DNA of 64,000 bases from a virus, in IMG/VR virus record IMGVR_UViG_3300008516_000951, positions 1 to 64,000 of that record; one strand, 5' to 3'. Under the pieces are notes generated by a model. The model saw only the letters and a program-made list of their open reading frames with translations. It was not told the origin of the DNA and ran no database searches. A program made the translations under genes and the position numbers. This document shows positions 2,306 to 63,285 of the stretch, piece by piece. The first letter of the stretch is position 1, and each line of letters opens with the position of its first letter.

Positions 2306-2809
2306 ATGAGAACCAACCGAAAACAATCAACCAAAATTTATCACGAAATGCAATCTCTAATAGCGGGAATTGTATGGGACTATCACCACCGGTACAACTG
2401 GGAATGGGATGAGCTAATGGCCGAAGCCAATCTGTTGTTTATGATAGCCTTGAAAAAATACGACAAAAGAGCGAAGCTATCAACGTGGCTTACGACTTTC
2501 ATTTCCAAAAGTCTCATCAACTACATTGTGAGGACCATCAAGCAAGCCAAAATTCCAGAAAGGGACTTCATTGAATCCATTTATCCATCAAATATAATGA
2601 CTGATTTGATGGACGGCTTAGATAATGACGCTAAAATGATTCTTGATTTAGTATTCGATATACCTTCACAAATCCAAGAATCCATATTAACCAAAGGAAC
2701 ATCATCAAGACATTTCAAAGCCGGGATAAAACGTCACCTAACATCATTAGGTTGGAGCAGAAGGCAAATACAAAAGTCCTTCAATAAAATAAGCAATGCA
2801 ATCAACTGA
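2306..2809 (+). CDS. Sigma-70-family-like protein, 167 aa
   Basis: Residues 30-75 resemble sigma region 2: a WDELMAEANLLFMIALKKYD segment followed by AKLSTWLTTFISKSLINYI. Region 2 of ECF-type factors has the same order. The C-terminal 40 residues (WSRRQIQKSFNKI) could be a divergent region 4 helix-turn-helix. The SD is GGAAAGGA. It could be a phage sigma factor acting on the 36-bp promoter element repeated in this genome, or a degenerate paralogue without promoter function. I favour the first but cannot show it. Confidence 0.6.
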   Translation: MRTNRKQSTKIYHEMQSLIAGIVWDYHHRYNWEWDELMAEANLLFMIALKKYDKRAKLSTWLTTFISKSLINYIVRTIKQAKIPERDFIESIYPSNIMTDLMDGLDNDAKMILDLVFDIPSQIQESILTKGTSSRHFKAGIKRHLTSLGWSRRQIQKSFNKISNAIN

Positions 2810-4154
2810 GCTTTACCAATATCAAAAACAGGCCGTCAAAAGGATTCATCAGCTTAACGGACGAGTACTATTGGCTGATGAGATGGGACTCGGTAAAACT
2901 TTAGAAGGGCTTCAATGGCTCCACGAATCAAAAAACTTTCCTGCAATAGTTATCTGTCCGGCAACTCTGAAATGGCTCTGGAAAAGTGAGGCCCTTAATC
3001 ATTTAGGTATTCATAGCAGTATATTGCACGGAACAAAACCACCTAAATCTCAATTAACAAAAACACGGCGATTAACTATCCTGAATTATGACATTTTACA
3101 GTATTGGGAAGGCTACATAAAATCAATAAAACCCAAGACGTTAATCATCGATGAATGCCATTTTACCAAGACACGAGGCGCTTTACGAAGCCGAATCACA
3201 AAAAGACTTTCCCGGTCGATTCCCTACATAATAGCTATGAGCGGAACACCACTTACCAACCGACCATCTGAATTATGGAATATCCTCAATATAATCAGGC
3301 CGGACCTATATCCAAATTTTATCACATACGCTTTTCAATACTGCAAACCTACAAGGCGGCCCTGGGGATGGGAATACAAAGGTGCAAACAATCTAAAAGA
3401 ATTGCACCGAAAACTTTCAGAATCAATGATGATAAGGCGTTTGAAAAAAAAAGTGCTGCAAGAACTGCCTGACAAAATCCGCTCAGTCATCCCAATGAAA
3501 ACAAAACATCTAAAGACATATCGTGATGCTGAAAATGATTTCATAAACTGGCTCACCAAACAATCTATCACAAAAGCCAACCGAGCTAAAAGAGCGGAGC
3601 GATTAGTTCAAATGGGTTATCTAAAAAGACTCGCGGCAAGGATGAAAATGAAATTGGTTTTGAGATGGGTCAAAGATTTTTTGGACAACACCAATAAAAA
3701 ACTCGTTATATTCGCAATACACAGAAAAATCATCGAACGCATTCACAATCAATTCCCAAAATCCGTAGTGATAGACGGGAGGACATCAGACAGAAAAAGG
3801 CAGCAAGCTATTTACAATTTCCAACATAACCCCAATATACGTTTATTTATAGGTAACATTCACGCGGCAGGGCACGGAATTACACTTACAGCATCTCATA
3901 CATTAGCCTTTATAGAATTAGACTGGGTCCCGGGAAATCTCATACAAGCTGAGGACCGTATCCATCGTATAGGGCAGAAAGAATCGGTTATTATCTATTA
4001 TCTAATAACAAAGGGGACCATCGAGGAAAAGCTCTGCAAAATAATCCAACACAAACAAAACATTGTATCAAGCACGCTCGATGGAAATGAAAACGTCAAT
4101 CAATTAAGCGTCTATAACGAATTGGAACGGATGCTACGAAAGAGATTAAAATGA
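2796..4154 (+). CDS. SNF2-family DNA helicase/ATPase, 452 aa
   Basis: All core superfamily 2 motifs are present: LADEMGLGKT (about 26-35), DECH (119-122), SGTP (149-152), and near the C-terminus the block AAGHGITLTASH with QAEDRIHRIGQ, which is diagnostic for SNF2/RapA-like ATPases. Length fits a phage minimal helicase with no accessory domain. It overlaps the preceding gene by 14 bases. A role in remodelling DNA at replication or recombination forks is usual for such phage enzymes. Confidence 0.9.
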   Translation: MQSTELYQYQKQAVKRIHQLNGRVLLADEMGLGKTLEGLQWLHESKNFPAIVICPATLKWLWKSEALNHLGIHSSILHGTKPPKSQLTKTRRLTILNYDILQYWEGYIKSIKPKTLIIDECHFTKTRGALRSRITKRLSRSIPYIIAMSGTPLTNRPSELWNILNIIRPDLYPNFITYAFQYCKPTRRPWGWEYKGANNLKELHRKLSESMMIRRLKKKVLQELPDKIRSVIPMKTKHLKTYRDAENDFINWLTKQSITKANRAKRAERLVQMGYLKRLAARMKMKLVLRWVKDFLDNTNKKLVIFAIHRKIIERIHNQFPKSVVIDGRTSDRKRQQAIYNFQHNPNIRLFIGNIHAAGHGITLTASHTLAFIELDWVPGNLIQAEDRIHRIGQKESVIIYYLITKGTIEEKLCKIIQHKQNIVSSTLDGNENVNQLSVYNELERMLRKRLK

Positions 4155-9226: not shown

Positions 9227-10233
9227 AAGTCAAACGAGAAGATTTCCTTAATCAATTAGAGTCCGTGCGTCCGGGATTGTCGCCCAGAGAATTAATCGAA
9301 CAATCATCTTGCATCATATTTCAAAAAGGAATGGTCTACACATACAACGATGAAATATCCTGTTCACAAAAATTACTGCCTTCACTAAGAAGTATTGAAG
9401 GTGCTGTACACGCTATCCCTCTCTTGAATCTGTTAAACAAAATGAAAGAAGATATAATTGGTGTGAGCGTGGAGAAAAGCATACTGCTGATTAAGGGCAA
9501 AAATCGCCGTGCCGGTATTCGTATGGATGAAAACATTTTGTTACCAATTGAAGCAGTTGATGAACCTAAAGAGTGGCAAAAACTGCCAAATGACTTTTCT
9601 GATGCAATAAGTTTAGTGCAATCCTGTGCCGGAACCAATGAATCGGAATTTGCAAGGACTTGCATTCATTTACACCCTGAATGGATAGAGGCGTGCAACA
9701 ATTATCAAGCCGCCCGTTACACAACAAAATTACCTTTTGAAAAATCAATACTGGCGCGTAAAGATTCATTGACTTATATCATTTCCGCAAATATGACAGA
9801 TTTTAGCTCGACGGAATCCTGGATTCACTTTCGTAACAAACAAGGTCTGATTATATCGTGCCGGAAATTTGTTGAAGATTATCCTGAGATAGGTTCTATA
9901 CTGGAAGTGAAGGGCAGGAATTTATCTTTACCAAAAGGGTTGAAAGAAGCCTCGGAAAAGGCAGCAGTATTCTCCGAAGAAAATACCGACGATAACCGAG
10001 TTGCCATCAGTATAGAAACCAACAAATTGGAAATCAAAGGTACGGGTGCTTCCGGCTGGTTCAAAGAGAAAAAGCAAATAAAATACGAAGGCAAGCCACT
10101 CAAATTCACTATTGAGCCGGGATTATTGAGTCAATTGGTCCAAAAATATAATGATTGTCAAGTGGCTAAAAATCGTTTGAAAATTACTTTTGATAAATTC
10201 GAGTATATCACTGTCTTGGGAAAAATCAATTGA
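9223..10233 (+). CDS. DNA polymerase sliding clamp (DnaN-like), 336 aa
   Basis: The length and the three-part alternation of strands and helices fit a bacterial-type beta clamp. The last 60 residues (LKFTIEPGLLSQLVQKYNDC, KNRLKITFDKFEYITVL) match the closing part of clamp domain 3. Conservation is low, so the call rests on pattern and context: a clamp loader is encoded at 16375 and a family A polymerase at 14063. It would tether the polymerase to DNA. Confidence 0.65.
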   Translation: MKVKREDFLNQLESVRPGLSPRELIEQSSCIIFQKGMVYTYNDEISCSQKLLPSLRSIEGAVHAIPLLNLLNKMKEDIIGVSVEKSILLIKGKNRRAGIRMDENILLPIEAVDEPKEWQKLPNDFSDAISLVQSCAGTNESEFARTCIHLHPEWIEACNNYQAARYTTKLPFEKSILARKDSLTYIISANMTDFSSTESWIHFRNKQGLIISCRKFVEDYPEIGSILEVKGRNLSLPKGLKEASEKAAVFSEENTDDNRVAISIETNKLEIKGTGASGWFKEKKQIKYEGKPLKFTIEPGLLSQLVQKYNDCQVAKNRLKITFDKFEYITVLGKIN

Positions 10234-11822
10234 GATTGCCGATAAACAAAATAATCTGCTCCGACTGCGTAGAGGCTATGAGCTGTTGGCCGGACGGCTG
10301 TGTGGATATGGTGGTGACATCAATACCGTATTGGGGGCTGCGGAGTTATTGGTGGGGTGGCGATTTAAAACTGCCCCACAAAAAACACAACAAAAATGGC
10401 AAGCCCATCCACGACTGGGCCGACCAAGATGAGATATATCAGATATGCACTGATTGCGGGGCCTTGCGACCGCGATACGGCATCGAGCCGACGTTGGAGG
10501 AGTATATTGCCACGACGGTCGAGATATTCCGCGAAGTCCGGAAGGTCTTGAAGGACTGGGGCACGCTGTGGCTGAATGTTGGGGATGCTTATGCGACAAG
10601 CTCAACATCGGGCGAACAAGGTGTTACAGGAGATCGGGCAAACCGAAGTTTCACAGCCGAAGGAATCCCAGCGAAAATCCCTTCCGGCCTAAAACCCGGC
10701 GACCTCATCGGCCTGCCGTGGCGAGTGGCCTTTGCTCTCCAAAAAGACGGCTGGTATCTCCGCTCGGCGATAATTTGGTGCAAATCGTGGTCGTTTCACG
10801 ATTGTGGTAAAAAACAAATAAAGAAAATCCGGACCGATTTATGGGGACGTAAAAGAACAAAAATAATTGATGAGGGCAATAGTTATGTCGGCTCCTGTAT
10901 GCCGGAGAGTCTAAAGGACTGGTGGTGGGAGCGGTGTCGGGTGAAGGTGAAAAGTGGTTGGGGTGATATTCCGCACCCAAGTCAAACACCGGGCGGCTAT
11001 TCCAGAGCGCCTAATAGTGGAGGAGTACTCAAAGCTCAAGCACAATGGCAAGACTGCCCCGGCTGCGATAAGTGCCGGGCCAACGGCGGCTACGTCCTGC
11101 GAAAGGGTTCCTGGCGACCGACGAGCGCGTACGAAATGCTATTTGAGTTTAGTAAATCCAAGACATACTATTGCGATGCAGAGGCGGTGAGAGAGGAGCT
11201 GGTGACATCGCCGGATAAATTGAGGCTAAGAGTCGAAGCAGCCAAGAAAGTAGAAGGAAGGGGGGATGCTTTAAGTATAGAAGCCTGGGGCCCAAATACT
11301 CAATCTTACAATCCTTCCGGACGCAATTTGAGAAACGTTTGGTGCATACAGACTCAGGCAACGAGCGTAAGCCATTACGCCACCTTCCCGGAGAAATTAG
11401 TAGAGCCCTGTGTAAAGGCCGGGACCAGTGAGAAGGGCAACTGCCCGAAGTGCGGGATGCCCTGGGCCAGGGTGATAGAGATAAATAAAGGCCAAAAACC
11501 CAGACAGAAGGGCGAGAAATATGATGGTATAAACGCTGGATATGGTACACATCCCGGCGTTGGGCGAGATGATATTATAAGTAAGACCCTCGGCTGGCGA
11601 CCCACTTGCACGTGCAACGCCGGAGAACCGGTCCCCGCCGTAGTCTATGACCCCTTCGCCGGGACCAATACGACAGGTTACGTCGCCAAAAAACTCAAAC
11701 GGAATTGGCTCGCCACCGAAATCAACCCAAAATATATAAAGTATGCTAAGCGAAGATTACAACCACACAAGAAAAAAGGCACACTTTTCGATAAAAAAAC
11801 ATCCAGAAAGAGAAAAAAATGA
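10230..11822 (+). CDS. DNA methyltransferase (N4-cytosine/N6-adenine, beta class), 530 aa
   Basis: Motif IV is near the N-terminus as TSIPYWG (usual form SPPYW), and the SAM-binding motif is at the C-terminal end (DPFAGTNTTG, then ATEINPKYIKYAKRRL). That order places it in the beta class. A long insert holds Cys pairs (CPGCDKC, CPKCGMP, CTCNAG) that may bind zinc. Ile replaces the first Pro of SPPY. G+C is clearly higher than in neighbouring genes, suggesting recent acquisition. It probably protects phage DNA from restriction. The start is TTG in the TTGA overlap. Confidence 0.88.
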   Translation: MRLPINKIICSDCVEAMSCWPDGCVDMVVTSIPYWGLRSYWWGGDLKLPHKKHNKNGKPIHDWADQDEIYQICTDCGALRPRYGIEPTLEEYIATTVEIFREVRKVLKDWGTLWLNVGDAYATSSTSGEQGVTGDRANRSFTAEGIPAKIPSGLKPGDLIGLPWRVAFALQKDGWYLRSAIIWCKSWSFHDCGKKQIKKIRTDLWGRKRTKIIDEGNSYVGSCMPESLKDWWWERCRVKVKSGWGDIPHPSQTPGGYSRAPNSGGVLKAQAQWQDCPGCDKCRANGGYVLRKGSWRPTSAYEMLFEFSKSKTYYCDAEAVREELVTSPDKLRLRVEAAKKVEGRGDALSIEAWGPNTQSYNPSGRNLRNVWCIQTQATSVSHYATFPEKLVEPCVKAGTSEKGNCPKCGMPWARVIEINKGQKPRQKGEKYDGINAGYGTHPGVGRDDIISKTLGWRPTCTCNAGEPVPAVVYDPFAGTNTTGYVAKKLKRNWLATEINPKYIKYAKRRLQPHKKKGTLFDKKTSRKRKK

Positions 11823-60836: not shown

Positions 60837-61012
60837 ATATCATATCCTTCATTATTCGATAGAATACGACCAAAGAAAGAAAGTATAAAAGGATTTTTGA
60901 AGGTGAATCAGAAATGAATCACAAAACCATACAAAATATATATATATGATTTGAGAGAAAGTGCTTGAAATAGGTATATTTATCAGAAATAGGTCTAATT
61001 ACAAAAGCATCC

Positions 61013-61076
61013 AAATAAAAAAGGCTTACCAGCTATAAAAATCAGAAGATGCAAATCAAGAAAGCTGGTAAGCCTT
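61013..61076 (-). terminator. Strong intrinsic terminator of the 61.0-61.4 kb RNA
   Basis: AAGGCTTACCAGCT (61021-61034) and AGCTGGTAAGCCTT (61063-61076) pair over 14 bp without mismatch. Reading on the - strand the stem ends in AAGCCTT and runs into TTTTATTT. It would end transcripts begun at promoter P3 before the prohead protease gene unless read-through occurs. Confidence 0.75.
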
Positions 61077-61362
61077 CACTTTGGAGGAGATGTGCCGAAA
61101 AAGTTGGGGGCACATCAAGTGCTCGCATTGAGGAGGAGGAGTAGATGGGGAATAACAAAACACTCAATGGCCCCCGAACCAACCTATTTCTTCAATTGTA
61201 TGATAGCAGGTTGGGAAGGGGGAAACGCTGACAAAACCTTCCCAACCAAGAAGACATCCTTGTCTTTACATCCCGGCACGTGAGAACATCAGCAAAGCAC
61301 ATCGCCGGGCGTCCTTGAGTCCCAACGGAACACATCAGGAGAATCCCATTTCTCAAGCGTTC
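61013..61362 (-). ncRNA. Structured RNA candidate, about 350 nt
   Basis: No gene occupies 60837-61404. From P3's start point near 61362 to the terminator the - strand can form: CTTGAG/CTCAAG (61314-61319 with 61352-61357), CCCGGC/GCCGGG (61272-61277 with 61304-61309), GGTTGGGAAGG/CCTTCCCAACC (61209-61219 with 61237-61247, 11 bp), GATGTGCC/GGCACATC (61089-61096 with 61109-61116), and the terminator stem. The region 60837-61012 beyond is A+T-rich with nothing obvious. Confidence 0.55.
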
Positions 61363-61364
61363 CA

Positions 61365-61400
61365 CCTATATTATCAAATTAACTCAGTGCTTCCTGCCAA
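61365..61400 (-). promoter_or_regulatory. Repeated phage promoter element, copy P3
   Basis: Read on the - strand it starts TTGGCAGGAAGCACTGAG and ends TTTGATAATATAGG, the same element as P1 (7774) and P2 (17318). It begins 5 bases after the stop of the gpF-like gene and drives the structured region 61013-61362. Confidence 0.7.
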
Positions 61401-61404
61401 AAAT

Positions 61405-63285
61405 TTATAATAATTCTTTTCCCGCCCACACACTACGCCTTTCTATTTCTCGATAAGAACGTTTGATAGTTTTGGGACCTTCGGACTTTATACTCTTTTT
61501 CACGGCTGTTTTACCACGCTTCCCCCACAATTGACCTTTCTGTTTCATATTCTTTTCCGCAGGCATCCAACTGCAACGACAATTATGGCTTGCAACATTA
61601 TTAGCAATATAATATGATTCAGTAGTTTCTAAATTATAGATATACCCCAAATAATGAAAGGCTTTACAATGAACAATAGAAGCATTCACAAAACGAGTAT
61701 CATTACAAAGACGTCTTGCAATTTTCTTATCCCGTTGTCTATCAAAAAAATTGCAAAACTTTACAAACAAGGAATGTCTGAAAATGCTCTTTCCAAACAA
61801 TTTAATGTAAGCCGCAGTACTATACGAAATCGCCTTTTGTCCACCAATATTCATATCAGAACCCAAAGTGAAGCGGAAACGATAAAATGGGCTAATATGA
61901 ATCTGATTGCAAGAGCCAATCAAGTTAGAGCCGCACATAAAGCAAGAATCGGACAACAAGTGTCGTGGACAACCAAATGCAAACGCGCCAAGACTATTGA
62001 GAAACATCCGCCTAATAATTCGCCATACGAAATCAAACTTGCGAAAATGCTGTTGAAAAGAGGGATTAAAACTATTCCCCAAAAAGCAATTGGAGGATAT
62101 AACTGCGACCTTGCTGCCTATCCCGTCGCCGTGGAAGTCTTTGCTGGAAAGTGGCATTGGTACGGAAATCACATCGCTATTACTGAGAAACGATTCCGCT
62201 ATATCCTCAATTCTGGATGGTTTATCTATGTCGTTGCAATCAACAATTCTTTCCCTCTCACTGATGCTGTTGCACATCACCTCGCTTCCTATATCCAAAG
62301 TATTCGCAGGGACAAACCCATCAGATGTCAATATCGGGTGGTTTGGGGTGCAAACGAATTTATCACCAAAGGAAGTCTTAAAGACAAACATATCTCCATC
62401 ATACCACCGTTTACTAACACCCGTGATTCCACCACCGGGCGTTACAAGCGAATCAGGAGGTAAGCAATTCGGATGTCGAGGAATTAAACCACGTGCCTCC
62501 TTAACTGTCATCACCACACCCTCTAAATCCCCACACAAAGGGCACACCCTATCATCCCCAACCGTACTCCACTCGGCCATTACCGTTATCTCTTTCACAC
62601 CCAAATGTTCAAACGCATCCAATTGTCCTTCGGCGTGGGCGTGTATGATTTCAGTGCGGGCCAAGGTTAAAGCCCTGGTGTTAGTAATTTTAGTAACGTT
62701 GTTTCTCAACTCTCGTGCTATCTTTCTTGGACTATAACCCTTAACCAAACCCTCACTTAATATCCGGGACATTTGCTGACTCATCGATGATGTAACACCT
62801 TTCAATTCTTCAAACGTACGGGTGCTCAGTAATTCGATTTTATTCAACAATTCCGGGGCGTCAAATGCAGTCCGTAGAAATTCAGCCTTACCACCCAAGA
62901 AAAACTCATCACCTTCCATAGCCAACTCAGCAGCACGTAAATCAGTGTAAGCCCTCAACCCACCTTTGCGATAAGCTGATTCAACATAAGTGCCTGTCCA
63001 AGGTTTTCCTGTTATAGCATCAGTAGTCAATATCTTGGCGTCAATTTGTTGCTGGAGCCATTTCTGATATGCCTGGGCCTTTTGGGCAGATGTATTGAAA
63101 CGCCAAGCCTGCCTCTCCTGCAAAATGGCCAATTCCTTTCGCTCCTCCAATCCAAAGACATCGTCGGTTACTATCAACGTTTGGATAGCTTTGGATACAC
63201 TTTTGAATCGGCGTTTCATATCGGCACAGAATTTACGCCGAAGCAAGGTGGTCCTCGTCGGGTCACGTTTGAGTTGGTTAGGCAT
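61405..63285 (-). CDS. Mu gpF-like head morphogenesis protein interrupted by an intein, 626 aa precursor
   Basis: The flanking sequences (1-273 and 569-626) form a Mu gpF/SPP1 gp7-like minor head protein: TLARTEIIHAHAEGQLDAFE, then zinc ligands CPLC (248-251), HPN(271-273) joined to CRC after splicing. Between them lies a complete intein, residues 274-568. The gene starts in a TAATG overlap with the 49-aa Gly-rich protein. The mature protein would be 331 aa, normal for the family. It should act at the portal during head assembly. Confidence 0.9.
   Translation of the reverse strand: MPNQLKRDPTRTTLLRRKFCADMKRRFKSVSKAIQTLIVTDDVFGLEERKELAILQERQAWRFNTSAQKAQAYQKWLQQQIDAKILTTDAITGKPWTGTYVESAYRKGGLRAYTDLRAAELAMEGDEFFLGGKAEFLRTAFDAPELLNKIELLSTRTFEELKGVTSSMSQQMSRILSEGLVKGYSPRKIARELRNNVTKITNTRALTLARTEIIHAHAEGQLDAFEHLGVKEITVMAEWSTVGDDRVCPLCGDLEGVVMTVKEARGLIPRHPNCLPPDSLVTPGGGITGVSKRWYDGDMFVFKTSFGDKFVCTPNHPILTSDGFVPANTLDIGSEVMCNSISERERIVDCNDIDKPSRIEDIAESFLSNSDVISVPMPLSSKDFHGDGIGSKVAVISSNCFLGNSFNPSFQQHFRKFDFVWRIIRRMFLNSLGAFAFGCPRHLLSDSCFMCGSNLIGSCNQIHISPFYRFRFTLGSDMNIGGQKAISYSTAAYIKLFGKSIFRHSLFVKFCNFFDRQRDKKIARRLCNDTRFVNASIVHCKAFHYLGYIYNLETTESYYIANNVASHNCRCSWMPAEKNMKQKGQLWGKRGKTAVKKSIKSEGPKTIKRSYREIERRSVWAGKELL
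61582..62466 (-). mobile_element. Intein (295 codons) whose centre holds an antisense endonuclease gene
   Basis: Splicing motifs are complete: block A begins at Cys274 (CLPPDSLVTPGG), block B is TPNH (313-316, His316), block F is GYIYNLETTESYYIANN, and block G is VASHN with His567 and Asn568, followed by Cys569. No LAGLIDADG or HNH motif is seen in residues 345-540. That segment is antisense to the + strand gene at 61669. Inserted in the HPNC/RC zinc motif. Confidence 0.9.
61669..62463 (+). CDS. Antisense homing endonuclease (Vsr/EDxHD-like), 264 aa
   Basis: It begins at ATG 61669, 7 bases after the phage-type SD GAAAGG (61656-61661); an ATG at 61654 lacks an SD. Residues 26-60 form a helix-turn-helix (SENALSKQFNVSRSTIRNRL). 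The core SPYEIKLAKMLLKRG (Glu121), GYNCDLA (Asp147), VAVEVFAGKWHW (Glu156, His163) and RYILNSGWFIYVVAI match the EDxHD/Vsr nuclease pattern. It ends at TAA one codon inside the intein. Its codons align in register with the intein codons on the other strand. Confidence 0.8.
   Translation: MNNRSIHKTSIITKTSCNFLIPLSIKKIAKLYKQGMSENALSKQFNVSRSTIRNRLLSTNIHIRTQSEAETIKWANMNLIARANQVRAAHKARIGQQVSWTTKCKRAKTIEKHPPNNSPYEIKLAKMLLKRGIKTIPQKAIGGYNCDLAAYPVAVEVFAGKWHWYGNHIAITEKRFRYILNSGWFIYVVAINNSFPLTDAVAHHLASYIQSIRRDKPIRCQYRVVWGANEFITKGSLKDKHISIIPPFTNTRDSTTGRYKRIRR

Follow-up and report, generated by a model that had tools for sequence, protein, structure and literature searches.

A head-gene intein in the phage DNA studied here very probably carries, antisense to itself and in codon register, a nuclease of the helix-turn-helix (HTH) and EDxHD type, presumably for the homing of the intein. 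The DNA analyzed (the window) comprises positions 1-64,000 of an IMG/VR virus record of 67,929 bases. On the - strand, the ORF at 61405-63285 encodes a 626-aa precursor of a minor head protein (Phage_Mu_F / SPP1 gp7) with an in-frame intein of 295 aa (Cys274-Asn568; 61582-62466), inserted at HPN|CRC; the + strand of the same DNA holds an endonuclease gene of 264 aa plus TAA at 61669-62463. About 800 base pairs here encode two unrelated proteins, one per strand, in exact codon register. The codon boundaries of the - ORF and the + ORF (61654-62463) coincide, as the initial annotation had claimed and the ORF coordinates bear out, so that any TTA, CTA or TCA codon of one frame puts a stop codon into the opposite frame. 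The + ORF has 269 codons with a further ATG at 61654; the endonuclease probably starts at ATG 61669, giving 264 aa. None of its 15 Leu and 19 Ser codons is TTA, CTA or TCA (P about 1e-4), exactly as first noticed, whereas in the rest of the phage these triplets make up 30% of the Leu and 18% of the Ser codons. The sense Leu and Ser codons facing the endonuclease are likewise free of these three triplets (P about 1e-5), which within the entire intein are confined to residues 2, 279 and 284, all beyond the endonuclease coding part. That the antisense frame is open is not due to chance, because relatives at 29-64% identity have kept it. Another + strand ORF overlapping the same region (62090-62737) had no family match, and no Rfam families or tRNAs were found within the window.

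When phages were searched with the + protein by tblastn, 129 records were recovered, among them Aaphi23, Salmonella jerseyviruses and Gordonia, Pseudomonas, Klebsiella and Vibrio phages, and most of the matches fell on annotated head-protein genes; for Aaphi23, the antisense match (3e-28, 38%) was stronger than the sense match (5e-17, 25%). In IMG/VR, one degenerate pattern gave 429 relatives, and each of the 80 retained lies opposite a long open sense frame, with its codons in register. The intein site in the relatives, phages and prophages alike, is almost always HPN|CRC. As a reverse check, we scanned with the intein frame alone; in all 80 loci so obtained, the codon-aligned antisense matched the endonuclease HMM (E <= 4e-49), and this antisense was open over at least 240 codons in 78 of them, the remaining two being L158, which ends at the contig end, and L121. 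Homologous inteins with a broken antisense frame, which the initial annotation had named as evidence against its claim, thus number 1 in 80, and that one, L121 (IMGVR_UViG_3300036760_000785), is a deletion derivative that has lost the part facing the N-terminal half of the endonuclease and has stops in that frame, with its intein still open and its splicing residues present; judged from its sequence, L121 is a natural decay intermediate. The arrangement is not unique to the window phage but is found in hundreds of others. Thirteen relatives from bacterial genomes (Gemmatimonadales, Rubellimicrobium, Chitinophaga, actinobacteria, Chloroflexi, Thiotrichales, PVC group and Scytonema) are likewise antisense to long sense ORFs, most of which have clear block B or block F motifs; in the Thiotrichales copy, the match is confined to the C-terminal half. 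Among remoter relatives, the antisense arrangement occurs in Mycobacterium phage Sejanus, Vibrio H2, Rhodococcus REQ3, a Helicobacter prophage and a Promineifilum plasmid. We lean, with reservation, toward an old and widespread class of mobile elements, largely unannotated, in which a nuclease and an unrelated, protease-like self-splicing domain occupy opposite strands with codon facing codon; the start and ribosome site of the nuclease often fall in a splicing block, its stop faces intein residue 2, and the class extends over phages or prophages of Pseudomonadota, Actinomycetota, Bacteroidota, Chloroflexota, Cyanobacteriota and Gemmatimonadota at least.

In Escherichia phage fEg-Eco06 (L012), this head gene is interrupted elsewhere, at STTC, by an intein of the same kind that likewise has an antisense endonuclease, which indicates that the element has changed its insertion site. 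In Salmonella phage vB_StyS-sam (L009), the database ORF43 (+, 2697-3098) lies inside the antisense endonuclease region, and ORF42 (2521-2769) overlaps it on the opposite strand. The head gene is labelled NAD+-asparagine ADP-ribosyltransferase in several records.

The EDxHD endonucleases known to us are either intron-borne or free-standing between split intein halves; the latter, in fractured genes, were reportedly described by Dassa and colleagues in 2009. A split intein of that type was ruled out for the window, as the sense ORF is continuous over 626 codons. The present protein resembles EDxHD homing endonucleases such as I-Bth0305I in its nuclease core fold, in the joining of this core to a DNA-binding part and in its phage setting, but its gene lies antisense inside one continuous intein. 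With canonical LAGLIDADG-type large inteins, the element shares the combination of Hint splicing ends and an endonuclease in one mobile insert, except that the endonuclease here is a separate protein encoded on the other strand and overlapping the splicing blocks themselves. Two further systems come close. The ShiLan element, a phage methylase insert with a hidden HNH endonuclease, is also open in the host frame with the endonuclease in another frame, but that frame is on the same strand, and the element has neither a splicing domain nor a detectable ribosome-binding site (PMC11855218), whereas here an intein and the opposite strand are involved; in the methylase gene at 10230-11822 of the window, no ShiLan-like hidden ORF was found. 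In Porphyra group I introns, His-Cys box endonuclease genes are encoded on the complementary strand and are thus antisense to a self-splicing host as well; this host, however, is a peripheral extension of an RNA intron, with an opposite strand that is not protein-coding (PMC2585584).

There is a real chance, if clearly the smaller one, that the arrangement has already been described, for example by Gosselin, Arsenault and Gogarten (bioRxiv 2025, 10.1101/2025.01.02.630785). As far as its title goes, this preprint deals with a 'Non-Canonical Architecture', and Gordonia MuF inteins would be in its scope; PMC11855218 cites the preprint together with overlapping reading frames in actinophages. The words antisense, reverse and opposite do not occur, however, in PMC11855218, a 2025 paper by the same authors on a same-strand, out-of-frame HNH element, and none of the papers covered by the literature search reports an antisense endonuclease in an intein.

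The helix-turn-helix that had been read from the + protein was recovered by profile: the HTH spans residues 25-55 (61741-61833, + strand), with PF02796 at residues 25-52 and model helices at residues 25-33, 38-45 and 49-58, and the window + frame scored 25.5 bits against HTH_7, above the cut-off of 23.8. The EDxHD/Vsr-like nuclease core, likewise proposed at the outset, occupies residues 119-191 (62023-62241, + strand). An AlphaFold model of the endonuclease, built with an alignment of 18 sequences, reached a pLDDT of 80.6, and its top PDB match in Foldseek was the catalytic domain of the homing endonuclease I-Bth0305I (3r3p_A; E 5.5e-4, prob 1.00, TM 0.63 by target length); a nuclease-fold match, the lack of which had been set as grounds for rejection, is thereby in hand. 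PDB searches with single sequences of either frame gave nothing useful, and only the alignment-based model gave matches. Among family members, the best Pfam matches were 7e-14 for HTH_7 and 2e-8 for REase_MTES_1575. Residues E121, D147, E156, H163 and H168 are invariant in 18 relatives, as read from the family alignment rather than from a residue-by-residue mapping onto 3r3p. In a wider set, the nuclease-motif His (H163) is kept in 57 of 66 sequences, and the WH motif is absent from some lineages, e.g., Aaphi23; some copies may therefore be inactive or use other residues.

The lack of the WH motif in some copies, together with the presence of the HTH domain, could also be taken to mean that the + protein is a real DNA-binding protein of nuclease fold that acts as a regulator or interferes with the host or a rival, and not in the homing of its own intein. 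A free-standing homologue fits such a role: in the Acinetobacter Obolenskvirus phages BUCT629 (L190, 2860-3753) and IME285 (L189, 455-1348), the endonuclease gene adjoins, and is convergent with, an intein-free head gene gpF. We regard this possibility as improbable, since the nearest solved structure is a homing endonuclease and the protein is confined to inteins at one conserved site, the exceptions being the Obolenskvirus copy and a small number of insertions at shifted positions. Moreover, Jerseyvirus includes both intein-plus phages and siblings with precise empty sites, the latter reading CATCCTAAC|TGTCGG in Salmonella phage SE2 compared to CATCCTAAT-[272 codons]-TGCCGT in phage sam. The free-standing gene has 12-13 stops in its antisense frame and diverges as an ordinary gene does, with 6/6/27 changes at codon positions 1/2/3; in an unrooted tree, it groups, on a long branch, with the Aaphi23 and Vibrio PvVp04 copies (100/99), and it may be an escapee from an intein or else the ancestral form.

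The host of the antisense gene is a head protein by profile (Phage_Mu_F, PF04233, 43.6 bits, 5.5e-11; TIGR01641, 2.4e-13). Its intein is complete as initially described (Cys274, TPNH, His567-Asn568 and Cys569 of the 626-aa ORF), having Cys1, block B TPNH (62338-62349, - strand), which faces the C-terminal part of the endonuclease and is under dual constraint, block F YNLE (61627-61638, - strand), and block G with the penultimate His and terminal Asn (61582-61587, - strand), followed by Cys+1. Against Pfam Intein_splicing (PF14890), it scored 22.7 bits, under the cut-off of 35.8. In the structural model of the intein, the ends are confident (pLDDT mostly 82-94) and Hint-like, and the middle is disordered (about 30-55); GyrA, RecA and DnaB inteins came out on top in Foldseek (prob 0.98-0.99), a weak result in which the best E was 0.02 and no match reached 0.001. 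As sense protein, this middle part is mostly a read-through of the nuclease gene.

Selection on the two strands was examined by codon position. Between the window and its relative L016, sense codon positions 1/2/3 differed by.41/.18/.27 in the overlap, compared to.40/.31/.59 in the exteins; four-fold sense sites differed by 10% inside the overlap and 63% outside, and amino acid identity in the overlap was.63 for the endonuclease vs.52 for the sense frame. For the 45 listed pairs of highest similarity, divergence in the overlap was set against that in the exteins of the genes concerned. In these pairs, the third sense position was the most variable one in the exteins; in the overlap, it was slow, and the first position, i.e., the wobble position of the endonuclease, was the most variable, except in the identical pair L038/L040. 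With the same exception, the endonuclease was more conserved than the sense protein in every listed pair. This inverted pattern indicates that the endonuclease frame is selected.

A sliding divergence profile over 172 pairs resolved three zones. Opposite endonuclease residues 1-132, the four-fold sites of the endonuclease differed by 57-68%, approximately the extein rate, with a sense identity of 23-33%; only the endonuclease is clearly constrained there, with little constraint on the sense frame. At endonuclease residues 133-168 (nuclease core, sense DFHGDG) and 205-264 (facing blocks A-B), endonuclease four-fold sites differed by 11-30% and sense ones by 11-41%. Both frames are under purifying selection, which is dual at these two stretches. 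Neutral substitution in the + frame, the remaining outcome against which the initial annotation had staked its claim, was contradicted by pairwise codon positions, the sliding profile and codon partition alike. Within the core, the endonuclease motif Y-N-C-D (residues 144-147; 62098-62109, + strand) faces sense codons with a fixed third base: opposite the invariant Tyr144, Asn145 and Asp147, the sense frame always has Val or Ile, encoded by GTA/ATA, GTT/ATT and GTC/ATC, respectively (66/66 sequences each). The sense motif DFHGDG (62122-62139, - strand), facing endonuclease residues 152-157 (PVAVEV), is constrained on both strands; its Asp and His dictate the synonymous base in endonuclease codons 153 and 155, which are GTC, ATC or CTC in 66/66 sequences and GTG in 53/53 with Val, respectively. 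The conservation of DFHGDG exceeds what the endonuclease requires.

The little-constrained, predictedly disordered middle of the sense frame might suggest that the endonuclease alone is functional and that the sense reading is a dead insert that has lost splicing. This is very unlikely, as the intein residues C1, T40, H43, H294 and N295 (the Cys1, TxxH and His-Asn signatures) are invariant in 23 aligned relatives, the L121 intein stays open after loss of the endonuclease, and the extein is an essential-type head gene. In addition, endonuclease four-fold sites facing blocks A-B are suppressed to 11-29% differing, for which selection on the sense strand is the sole explanation. Least credible of all is that the + frame is no gene and looks open and conserved merely through the codon-register intein opposite: codon-aligned antisense frames do inherit sense similarity, and the phase is always this one, but such shadow conservation is ruled out by the codon-position tests, in which the + frame beats the sense frame in the overlap and diverges least at its own positions 1 and 2, and the + frame further has HTH and nuclease matches, a confident model and a free-standing relative that is an ordinary gene, with no such conservation in the antisense frame of the exteins.

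For an intein with a functional antisense nuclease, we propose the following mechanism. The - strand would yield the head-protein precursor, from which, judging by the conserved residues, the Hint ends would splice the intein out and rejoin HPN to CRC. A separate + strand transcript would be translated into the HTH-EDxHD nuclease, which presumably cuts the intein-free HPNC|RC site; repair would then copy the whole unit into the cut site, as the fold, the empty sites and the sporadic presence of the element suggest. Such a unit would let a mobile intein bring along an endonuclease whose expression is separate from that of the host protein. Long gene pairs in antisense tend to be contested for want of solid evidence on both frames. 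In the present case, each frame belongs to a recognisable family, and with homologues in the hundreds, empty sites, a naturally deleted copy and a free-standing one, the dual coding can be put to the test by ordinary genetics. In-register sense-antisense coding is said to have been proposed for early genes by Rodin and Ohno, and the present pair is a living case of it, because middle bases face each other in this register. Many head-protein inteins in the databases have no annotated endonuclease or only spurious fragments of one, and such genes will go undetected by gene callers that do not permit long overlaps.

The ribosome-binding site noted earlier for the + gene is present as a Shine-Dalgarno-like AAAGG (61657-61661, + strand) 7 nt before ATG 61669, and L016 and L017 have a similar sequence in the corresponding position. 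The endonuclease ATG is, in most relatives, the antisense of the His in block F HVYNLE, and a GAGG is the antisense of Asn-Leu. The block F His is accordingly CAT in 57 of 68 cases vs 137 of 332 in exteins (P 8e-11), and the Leu is CTC in 50 of 68 vs 487 of 2004 (P 8e-17), both P values being overstated since kinship is ignored. In the window and relatives like it, Tyr is the first residue of the motif and the endonuclease starts further downstream; the block F Leu of these relatives is often TTA, a stop for the endonuclease frame, as it is in the window. The endonuclease stop TAA (62461-62463, + strand) faces intein residue 2 (Leu, TTA), as is the case in 48 loci, 28 with TTA and 20 with CTA. 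With the start and ribosome site in block F and the stop opposite residue 2, the gene in most relatives fits inside the intein. A + strand promoter search gave 3 sites, compared to 4.1 expected, none of them above chance, including a possible TTGCAA-17-TATGAT at 61590-61618. A promoter for the + gene could lie inside 60837-61404, the noncoding stretch after the head gene, which contains a perfect 14-nt inverted repeat (61021-61034 and 61063-61076, 28 nt apart).
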